This document shows, piece by piece, positions 4,476 through 6,640 of a stretch of DNA of 29,555 bases. The DNA is taken from positions 1 through 29,555 of IMG/VR virus record IMGVR_UViG_3300047300_000345, one strand, 5' to 3'. The DNA is from a virus. Within the stretch, counting starts at the first letter, position 1, and every line of letters starts with the position of its first letter. The notes beneath the pieces are model-generated. The model made no database searches. It had not been told where the DNA came from and saw only the letters and a list, made by a program, of their open reading frames with translations. Both the position numbers and the translations under genes were made by a program.

Positions 4476-4971
4476 CATACAGAACGGAAAGGTGGTACCC
4501 AGTGAACACTGCTACACACTTGGCTCTCTAAAGAAGATTATAGAGGAATATCCTATGGACTATCCAAAGGTGTATGCTTATGTGTTTTACATGACATGTC
4601 CCAACCCTGACCTCAACCCGTTTTTTGATGTACCAGAAGCAGATAAAGAAGAACTCATTCTTAAAGAAATTGATGCTGACTTTTCAACTGATGATGATCT
4701 TATTACAGATGCTATTAAGCTATGTAAAAAACTCTATGAAACCCCGACATACAGAGCCTATGCCGGTATTAAAAGTATGCTGGACCGTCTGGCTAAGTAT
4801 ATGGAGACTACAGAGATTGAACATGGTAGGGATGGAAACATTACAGCTCTTGTAAATGCAGCAGCCAAGTTTGAGTCTATTAGGCAGTCTTTTAAGGGTA
4901 CACTTAGAGATCTGGAAGAAGAACAACAAAGTCAGGTGAGAGGAAATCAAAATTTGGCGTATGACCAATGA
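4459..4971 (+). CDS. Conserved crAss-like phage protein, unknown function (170 aa)
   Basis: A soluble acidic, mostly helical protein. The opening MIRLFDIQNGKVVPSEHCYT is a pattern I associate with conserved proteins of crAss-like phages upstream of the packaging genes. Later parts include DADFSTDDDLITDAIKLC, PTYRAYAGIKSMLDRLAKYM and DGNITALVNAAAKFESIRQS, ending in a charged coil. No catalytic motif is seen. It overlaps both neighbours (17 nt upstream, 11 nt downstream). Its position between PhoH and terminase suggests a role in late DNA metabolism or packaging; this is inference from location only. Confidence 0.75.
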   Translation: MIRLFDIQNGKVVPSEHCYTLGSLKKIIEEYPMDYPKVYAYVFYMTCPNPDLNPFFDVPEADKEELILKEIDADFSTDDDLITDAIKLCKKLYETPTYRAYAGIKSMLDRLAKYMETTEIEHGRDGNITALVNAAAKFESIRQSFKGTLRDLEEEQQSQVRGNQNLAYDQ

Positions 4972-5047
4972 TATATGTCCAATACATTCTATACTGCTTG
5001 ATAATGAGGGCAACTGTCCTACATGTCTGGAGCAGCTAAACTTGTAA
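4961..5047 (+). CDS. Mini-protein with paired Cys/His and CPTC motifs (28 aa)
   Basis: A 28-codon reading frame starting at the ATG inside the end of the previous gene and ending TAA at 5045-5047. The product contains CPIH near the start and CPTC near the end, spaced by about 13 residues. This is the layout of a one-site zinc ribbon, and resembles the tiny Cys-pair proteins seen in other Bacteroidota phages. Overlapping start and metal-site pattern support coding. Its stop codon lies inside the predicted acceptor stem of the following tRNA-like gene, an unusual overlap. Too short to judge by composition, so confidence is moderate. Confidence 0.5.
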   Translation: MTNDICPIHSILLDNEGNCPTCLEQLNL

Positions 5048-5199
5048 GGTGCTGGAACTGGCAGACAGACCCTCTTGTCTCGGGGGTGTGGGTTTTTCTC
5101 TGAGAAAGACAGCATATGGCAGCAAGTGCTGCAGGGGTTGACCACCCACTTTGTGCTGATCCTAAAGACCACGTGGTTGTTCGAGTCAACCCCTTACAG
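5043..5199 (+). tRNA. tRNA-like gene interrupted by an ~88-nt structured insert
   Basis: The two ends fold as a tRNA. The acceptor stem TGTAAGG (5043-5049) pairs perfectly with CCTTACA (5192-5198), followed by G at 5199 and no encoded CCA. The D arm is CTG/CAG (5052-5054, 5066-5068) with loop GAACTGGCAGA, resembling Bacteroidota tRNA-Leu. The anticodon arm is CCCTC/GGGGG (5070-5074, 5082-5086) with loop TTGTCTC; read literally the anticodon is GTC (Asp). The T arm is GGTTG/CAACC with loop TTCGAGT (5175-5191). Between anticodon and T arms lie 88 nt instead of about 5-20. They hold GTGGGT/ACCCAC (5088-5093, 5144-5149), TTTCTC/GAGAAA (5095-5107) and GCAGC/GCTGC (5119-5132). It may be a pseudo-tRNA, a tRNA with a giant variable arm, or one carrying a removable insert. 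Confidence 0.5.
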
Positions 5200-5226
5200 C
5201 TAAACTTTTTAACCAAACCTATAACC

Positions 5227-5760
5227 ATGAAAAAGTTCATTGTGTTTTTATTGCTAGTTATTCTAGCCACTGGTTGTTCACGTAAGCCAGACAACAAGAT
5301 CCATAACCAAAAGACAGAAAAGGGTGATTGGATTAAAGACTCTGTTACTAATAAACCAGTACAGGAGAATGTAGTGTATTACCAGATTTCTCCTACATGG
5401 GGACAGTCTTTTGAGTGGGCTAGTCAAAGAGGTGACAGGGCACTACAAGTTATTGTAGCTCTTATACTGTTTATACTCTTTGTTGCACTTATAGTAGGAA
5501 CTGTAACAGGTGCATCTTGGCTCCCCCAGTATTTTGAAAATCCTGTACGTCTGTATGCTGTATTGTTTGTTTTATTATCTGGAGCTTTTTATTTCTATAC
5601 CGGTAGTGCTTTTGGAGTAAAATGGAACAACGATAAATGGGTTACTAAACAAGTGTATGAAAAAGCTATAAAAGAAGCAGGATCTACACAACCTATCTGG
5701 GACTCCCTACAGAACAACTGTTTAATTATTGATGGTCCTTATAACTGTGAGAAGAAATGA
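5227..5760 (+). CDS. Predicted membrane lipoprotein with two further membrane helices (177 aa)
   Basis: The N-terminus is a lipoprotein signal: MKKF, hydrophobic FIVFLLLVILATG, then Cys at residue 17 (L-A-T-G-C) followed by SRKPDNK. Two more hydrophobic helices lie at about residues 72-95 (ALQVIVALILFILFVALIVG) and 107-125 (VRLYAVLFVLLSGAFYFYTG). The last third is soluble with two cysteines. I chose the ATG at 5227 because it yields the clean signal; the same frame is open upstream through the tRNA-like gene. Its stop overlaps the SNase start (ATGA). Roles to consider are lysis (spanin-like) or superinfection exclusion at the envelope; sequence alone does not decide. Confidence 0.7.
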   Translation: MKKFIVFLLLVILATGCSRKPDNKIHNQKTEKGDWIKDSVTNKPVQENVVYYQISPTWGQSFEWASQRGDRALQVIVALILFILFVALIVGTVTGASWLPQYFENPVRLYAVLFVLLSGAFYFYTGSAFGVKWNNDKWVTKQVYEKAIKEAGSTQPIWDSLQNNCLIIDGPYNCEKK

Positions 5761-6104
5761 ATCTATACACCTATGAAGCCACCGTACTACGTACAGTAGA
5801 CGGGGACACTGCCGAACTAAACATTGACCTGGGCTTTACTATTTTCTGGAAATCTACTTGTAGGTTCTATGGTATAAACACCCCGGAACTTAAAAGCAAG
5901 GATCCGGTAGAAAGGGAAAAAGCCAAAGAAGCTAAGAAGCAGACAGAAGCCAATCTACCCGCAGGAAGTAAAATCAAGATTGTGTCCAGAGAGCTCGACA
6001 AATACGGCAGACCGTTGGTGGATATCTACTGTGGAGAAAACTACAGTGTACACTTAAACCAATGGTTAGTAGACAACGGGTATGCTAAAGTGTATATTCT
6101 GTAA
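5757..6104 (+). CDS. SNase-like (thermonuclease family) nuclease
   Basis: A 115-residue staphylococcal-nuclease fold enzyme, predicted to hydrolyse DNA or RNA with Ca2+. Family landmarks: VDGDT (Asp17, the D21 equivalent), CRFYGINTPEL (Arg36 and Glu44, equivalents of R35 and E43) and DKYGRPLVDI (Arg85, the R87 equivalent). Position 41 is Asn where the S. aureus enzyme has metal ligand Asp40; INTPE is a common variant in phage and bacterial members, so activity is still likely. No signal peptide, so it would act inside the host cell. It is coupled to the lipoprotein gene (4-nt overlap) and followed by a tiny coupled ORF. Confidence 0.85.
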   Translation: MNLYTYEATVLRTVDGDTAELNIDLGFTIFWKSTCRFYGINTPELKSKDPVEREKAKEAKKQTEANLPAGSKIKIVSRELDKYGRPLVDIYCGENYSVHLNQWLVDNGYAKVYIL

Positions 6105-6566: not shown

Positions 6567-6640
6567 TGTGGGGTGGTGTAACGGTAGCACGTTGGGCTCA
6601 TAACCCAGAGATCCGGATTCGACTTCCGGCCCCGCAACCA
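6567..6640 (+). tRNA. tRNA with CAU anticodon (tRNA-Met; CCA encoded)
   Basis: Complete cloverleaf. Acceptor TGTGGGG/CCCCGCA (6567-6573, 6630-6636) with one T-G pair, discriminator A, and encoded CCA at 6638-6640. The D arm has loop AACGGTA; the anticodon stem is TTGGG/CCCAG with loop CTCATAA, anticodon CAT; the T arm is CCGGA/TCCGG with loop TTCGACT. Three G:C pairs next to the anticodon loop and the CCCCGCAACCA end are initiator-like, but the U1-A72 pair and Y11:R24 in the D stem are elongator-like. CAU could also be tRNA-Ile2 if the wobble C is lysidinylated. A weak AATACT/AGTATT hairpin (6551-6567) lies just upstream. Confidence 0.93.

Follow-up and report, generated by a model that had tools for sequence, protein, structure and literature searches.

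An apparently undescribed tRNA-shaped RNA family of Bacteroidota and phages, a candidate carrier for tRNA-dependent asparagine synthesis

The tRNA-like locus in the virus record

The window, by which we mean the whole stretch of DNA analysed, is a 29,555-base IMG/VR virus record from a phage that is a distant relative of the crAss-like phages (best TerL matches 25–27% identical). It contains an RNA with a complete tRNA core (Table 1). The general tRNA features are all present: a 7-bp acceptor stem, D, anticodon and T arms, a T loop of the form TTCRANY, U8-A14 and G18 G19, with positions 15-48 compatible with a tRNA. The D loop holds G18 G19 and A20a, and no U20a. A sequence-only reading of this DNA had described such a core, with anticodon and T arms 88 nt apart, and the sequence together with its homologs confirmed it; the Leu-like D arm and the Asp-like anticodon, C38 and G73 of that reading were likewise borne out.

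Table 1. Coordinates of the tRNA-like RNA and its parts in the window
Feature	Position	Strand	Basis
Whole tRNA-like RNA, 5′ acceptor base U1 to G73	5043–5199	+	sequence, alignment
Acceptor stem, 5′ strand TGTAAGG, first base U1 (GatCAB-type U1-A72 pair)	5043–5049	+	
Leu-type D arm CTG-GAACTGGCAGA-CAG, 3-bp stem, 11-nt loop	5052–5068	+	
Anticodon arm CCCTC-TTGTCTC-GGGGG (G34 U35 C36 U37 C38)	5070–5086	+	
Expanded variable arm, 88 nt, with conserved V-domain	5087–5174	+	
Helix P1, 5′ strand GTGG paired with CCAC	5088–5091 with 5169–5172	+	covaries
Helix P1b, 5′ strand TCT (5099–5101), and internal loop GAGAAA, facing CTAA (5162–5165)	5099–5108	+	
Helix P2, ACAGCATA paired with TGTGCTGA	5109–5116 with 5152–5159	+	alignment comparison
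Additional hairpin GCAGC-AAGT-GCTGC, confined to the window's subgroup	5117–5134	+	
Conserved motif GGGTTGACCAC	5135–5145	+	
CTAA internal-loop strand, P1b 3′ strand AGA (5166–5168) and P1 3′ strand CCAC	5162–5172	+	
T arm GGTTG-TTCGAGT-CAACC	5175–5191	+	
Acceptor stem, 3′ strand CCTTACA (5192–5198), A72 (5198), discriminator G73 (5199)	5192–5199	+	

The RNA escapes standard detection. ARAGORN and Rfam missed it in the window, where their sole match was a tRNA-Met at 6567, and at the gathering score Rfam RF00005 matched neither this RNA nor its relatives, among which three sub-threshold matches reached 25–27 bits. The family is absent from Rfam 15, as judged from the window, the phage relatives and the host relatives searched, and blastn against 50,697 annotated phages returned no homolog. 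We found no description of it in the open-licence literature; an earlier description elsewhere is possible. The family is apparently undescribed.

Other features were noted around the RNA. A 28-codon open reading frame with paired cysteines (MTNDICPIHSILLDNEGNCPTCLEQLNL) at 4961–5047 terminates within the acceptor stem, and a Staphylococcal-nuclease-type protein (PF00565) is encoded slightly downstream, at 5757–6104. The 11-bp direct repeat CAGCTAAACTT occurs on both sides of the RNA (5033–5043 and 5197–5207) and may have been left behind by a tandem copy or have arisen by chance. A mobile-element reading of this repeat was dropped, as relatives have the RNA without it.

Members of the RNA family and support for its structure

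Phage relatives were collected by TerL-based and pattern-based scans of IMG/VR, and chromosomal relatives were found by a pattern scan of GTDB. At least 252 distinct members are now known to us (151 host, 101 phage). The phage relatives share the same tRNA core, frequently upstream of terL, and phage copies are located in tRNA clusters. Among the GTDB matches listed were Pedobacter, Chitinophaga, Cyclobacterium, Belliella, Saprospiraceae and Cytophagaceae, as well as some Flavobacteriales and one Ignavibacteriales genome; among these matches up to five copies stood at one chromosomal locus, and pairs or arrays whose copies differ in the variable arm occur within a single genome. At Pedobacter loci such as L431, L432 and L434, the anticodon stem is CCTCC/GGTGG, with an identical U-U mismatch in both tandem copies. 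ARAGORN called some short-armed phage members tRNA-Asp(gtc) and overlooked the copies at 21 of 22 chromosomal loci.

From the family we built a covariance model, R1, which in the genomes searched gave members scores of at least 68 bits and other tRNAs at most 61 bits. It identified 41 carriers among 396 genomes drawn from the phylum, and the members found in this way were read out at 30 of the carrier loci.

The structure was examined by aligning 42 members from hosts and phages. Of the alignment cells, 97.2% pair, and for 26 of the 38 pairs both partners have changed. Cells changed on both sides numbered 285, as compared with 77.5 after shuffling, and the covariation was 0.525 versus 0.169 in shuffled alignments and 0.08–0.12 when the partners were slid. 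The insert's own helices show no less covariation than the tRNA arms. By itself, the minimum-energy fold of 5043–5199 is not a cloverleaf (z = –1.2), and folding energy alone is no proof; we regard the RNA as a real conserved structure because of the covariation across homologs.

These data bear on the possibility of a dead or intron-interrupted tRNA remnant. The sequence-only reading had kept a dead remnant as its fallback and expected it to show decay without compensatory changes in relatives. Being missed by tRNA finders would fit a remnant, but compensatory changes were found throughout the structure, at least 252 distinct members exist across the phylum and its phages, and G73 is never lost. 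We consider a remnant extremely improbable and the feature real. Pseudogene and tmRNA readings were rejected on structure and covariation. A group I or II intron was rejected as well, since the insert lies between the anticodon and T arms and not in the anticodon loop, is as short as 5 nt in some members, and has no intron match in the window. We also rejected an allo-tRNA or selC-like tRNA: the acceptor stem has 7 bp and the T stem 5 bp, so that the branch is not lengthened to 8/4, 9/3 or similar.

The variable arm

The sequence-only reading took the gene for a tRNA split by an insert, a view that had to be given up: the insert is the expanded variable arm of a conserved family, ranging from 5 to >110 nt across the family and from 5 to 102 nt in the phage relatives, and in many members it forms a conserved domain backed by compensatory changes. 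The structured nature of the insert was correctly recognised, whereas the helix GTGGGT/ACCCAC drawn for it is not the conserved one; comparison supports P1, P1b and P2. One P1 column pair of the 42-member alignment (47-199) occurs as UA, GC, AU and CG, and the P1b pairs covary in 21–24 of the 42 sequences.

About 48 distinct phage members have a common long variable-arm architecture that consists of an outer helix, a GAUAAA/CUAA internal loop, a second helix and the motif GGGUUGACCAC. The RNA of the window represents a subgroup of this architecture with one additional hairpin; L292, L273, L288 and L265 also have a hairpin at this place. In other phage members (L018, L062, L219, L283 and others), GGGTTGACCAC is followed by a perfect palindrome of varying sequence (GCGCGC, GTGCAC, GCCGGCCGGC or GCATGC), which resembles a kissing-loop dimerisation site and is lacking in the window's subgroup. 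Such palindromes occur in 41 of 48 phage members (9.9 after shuffling) and in 18 of 50 host members (17 after shuffling, no enrichment). As the enrichment is confined to phage members, we discarded the idea that a kissing loop functions throughout the family.

Identity bases for AspRS, GatCAB and decoding

The major Asp determinants are G73, G34, U35, C36 and C38 (PMC9976931), and this AspRS identity set is present in the RNA family. G73, G34 and U35 occur in all 252 members, C36 in 251 and C38 in 249. The regular expression required GT at 34–35 and a pyrimidine at 36–37, and the search patterns were tilted towards GTCTC, but the same identity bases are seen in members retrieved with the covariance model. 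The anticodon is GUC bar single variants, and the GUU of tRNA-Asn was seen in one phage type (L127/L092). Two variants keep U1-A72 and G73: a minimal 77-nt member with the loop CTATCTC (AUC) at L486 538–614 (genome G078), and a member with the loop CTTTCTC (UUC triplet) at L455 1501–1611.

Bacterial GatCAB needs the pair U1-A72 on tRNA-Asn, and G1-C72 and U20a are antideterminants on tRNA-Asp (PMC4206432, PMC9976931). In the RNA family, U1-A72 is present in 150 of 151 host and 89 of 101 phage members, the remaining 12 phage members having A1-U72, while U1 occurs in only 75 of 720 other tRNAs of the loci (Gln and Asn excluded). The canonical tRNA-Asp of the carrier genomes has G1-C72 and U20a. 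The family departs from it in both, with U1-A72 in nearly all members and A20a, in sequence the features of a GatCAB substrate. Read by these determinants, the predicted AspRS identity of tRNA-Asp and the predicted amidotransferase identity of tRNA-Asn are joined in one RNA.

A decoding elongator tRNA would be expected to have U33 and a purine at position 37. Every member has U or C at position 37. At position 33, U is lacking in 21 of the 252 members and in further ones found by the covariance model (C33, A33 or G33); U33 is still kept in most. Judged by these bases, the features needed for decoding are not maintained in the family. This bears on one alternative, in which the RNA is an ordinary translating tRNA-Asp whose variable arm is exceptionally long, or a tRNA with such an arm that answers Asp codons with Asn or Asp. 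Such a tRNA would account for the complete cloverleaf with its Asp identity set, for the position of phage copies in tRNA clusters and for U33 in most members. It is quite unlikely, however, as a canonical tRNA-Asp is also present in the carrier genomes and the RNA is therefore an extra, position 37 is always a pyrimidine, U33 is lost in some members, and U1-A72 would give an amidation substrate and hence a miscoding hazard.

The AsnC-type neighbour

Of 126 host loci, 72 have an AsnC-type gene in divergent orientation that starts 121–262 nt upstream of the RNA; the other 54 loci are without an adjacent AsnC. The neighbouring regulator has AsnC-type HTH and ligand domains. Among proteins of solved structure it is closest to E. 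coli AsnC (E 1e-36), the regulator of the asparagine synthetase gene asnA. In many of the regions between AsnC and the RNA, inspection by eye showed a –7 element of the Bacteroidota type (TAnnTTTG) directed towards the RNA. The adjoining AsnC, a regulator of the asparagine type, probably controls the RNA. At Cyclobacterium-type loci (L314, L318, L366, L396 and L411), an AraC-family regulator occupies the usual divergent position of AsnC.

For the phages only, we considered a decoy that would protect host tRNA-Asp from an attacking anticodon nuclease or stand in for it, or another anti-defence tRNA. Its carriage by phages, and an anticodon loop that is conserved while the remainder drifts, would suit this explanation, but chromosomes carry this RNA too, with links to AsnC and GatB, and no defence gene recurs beside it, so that we judge a decoy very unlikely.

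Co-occurrence with AsnC, GatB and asparagine synthetases

An AsnC query with a cut-off of E ≤ 1e-43 matched 73 of the 396 genomes. AsnC is present in 41/41 carriers, also where it is not adjacent to the RNA (e.g., G004, G043, G070 and G082). GatB was found in 41/41 carriers and in 0/32 AsnC-type genomes without the RNA, a tally for which GatB was searched in part of the RNA-negative genomes and from which carrier G006 stands apart. Tested genomes with GatB but without AsnC lack the RNA too.

Most of the 32 AsnC-type genomes without RNA and GatB resemble a distant Lrp clade. Three others, G008, G128 and G366, are nested in the Sphingobacteriaceae AsnC clade of the carriers, and here the RNA and GatB are jointly missing. 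Since most of these RNA-less genomes appear to fall in the separate Lrp clade, the clean joint loss amounts to one event. Phylogenetic dependence weakens the co-occurrence statistics, and some of the pattern could reflect the history of the clades.

AsnA was found in 3 of 45 carriers and the E. coli-type AsnB signature (∼560 aa, match to 1–385) in one of 45, G006, which also has a weaker AsnC. All seven AsnC-type non-carriers examined show this signature. The AsnB typing was checked on two proteins, of which the one from G008 scored 829 bits to E. coli AsnB and the AsnB-like protein of a carrier 130 bits. We dropped the broader statement that carriers are without any AsnB homolog: most carry distant AsnB-like paralogs, and the claim was therefore narrowed to E. 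coli-type AsnB. The carriers are mostly without AsnA and apparently also without E. coli-type AsnB. All carriers tested have AsnRS, an enzyme that requires free asparagine.

A proposed role as carrier for asparagine synthesis

Based on these observations, we propose that the RNA is probably a dedicated non-decoding tRNA carrier for tRNA-dependent asparagine synthesis, under the control of AsnC. We infer that AspRS would recognise GUC, C38 and G73 and load aspartate on the RNA, that GatCAB would recognise U1-A72, meet neither antideterminant and amidate Asp to Asn on the RNA, and that free asparagine would then be released for AsnRS and metabolism. AsnC would adjust the supply through its control of the RNA, which would be kept off the ribosome. 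It would have to avoid the ribosome because an Asn-charged GUC tRNA would place Asn at Asp codons, and this need would be the reason for the altered anticodon loop (pyrimidine 37, some loss of U33) and the bulky variable domain. The link to AsnC and GatCAB would explain the odd mixture of features in the RNA. Phage copies may maintain the asparagine supply during infection.

In such bacteria U1-A72 is usually found on tRNA-Asn too (PMC4206432), and a non-discriminating AspRS could therefore make Asn without the RNA, which counts against a carrier. The 12 A1-U72 phage members, the three carriers with AsnA, carrier G006 with its E. coli-type AsnB signature and weaker AsnC, the AsnB-like paralogs, the 54 loci without adjacent AsnC and the retention of U33 in most members also speak against it.

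Alternatively, the RNA could be an AsnC-linked regulatory RNA that is charged, perhaps amidated, and reports the Asp/Asn state or titrates AspRS or GatCAB, without making bulk Asn. The AsnC neighbourhood and co-occurrence, the conserved variable domain, and the paired or arrayed copies within one genome that differ in their variable arms are compatible with such a role. We think it rather unlikely, because a metabolic carrier explains the dependence on GatB and the scarcity of synthetases more simply. A more far-reaching version of the carrier proposal, in which the variable domain is itself active and senses or releases asparagine, would unite carrier and regulator in a single molecule, giving a complete system of asparagine synthesis based on RNA; this extension we regard as improbable.

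If the carrier proposal is true, it would explain how asparagine is produced in bacteria lacking asparagine synthetase, and a noncoding RNA of the Bacteroidota would be central to amino-acid biosynthesis, with an AsnC-type regulator of its own. The RNA would be widespread yet apparently unannotated, and phages would carry an auxiliary metabolic RNA.

Comparison with known systems

In Deinococcus, Thermus and Bdellovibrio, tRNA-dependent Asn synthesis takes place on tRNA-Asn, by a non-discriminating AspRS and GatCAB (PMC4206432). The RNA resembles the tRNA-Asn of that route in U1-A72, G73, the predicted loading with Asp followed by amidation by GatCAB, and its occurrence in organisms poor in asparagine synthetases. 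It differs in its GUC anticodon, for which an ordinary discriminating AspRS should suffice, in its Leu-type D arm and expanded variable domain, and in being seemingly unable to decode. Bacteria with AsnRS and GatCAB and without asparagine synthetase, including Bacteroidota, are predicted to use a non-discriminating AspRS on tRNA-Asn (PMC4206432). A carrier RNA would, if true, be another solution: a tRNA given over entirely to metabolism, which the normal AspRS would charge and which would stay off the ribosome.

With canonical tRNA-Asp(GUC), the RNA shares GUC, C38, G73 and G2-C71. Canonical tRNA-Asp has G1-C72, U20a, A37, a short variable loop and a type I D arm, whereas the RNA of the window has U1-A72, A20a, U37, an expanded variable arm and a Leu-type D arm. 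A 3-bp D stem, a long D loop and a long variable arm are also found in the type II tRNAs (Leu, Ser) and in allo- and selC-like tRNAs (PMC7609411). The RNA differs from these by its Asp identity, by acceptor/T stems of 7/5 and not 8/4 or 9/3, and by a far longer variable arm with its own conserved domain.

Some tRNAs work outside translation, as does tRNA-Glu in haem synthesis and a special tRNA-Gly in the cell-wall synthesis of Staphylococcus, where tRNA-Gly copies are specialised away from translation. As in these cases, a charged tRNA would feed a metabolic route. The route proposed for our RNA differs in that it is predicted to yield a free amino acid, and the RNA itself differs in its large additional domain and in having an AsnC-type regulator of its own.
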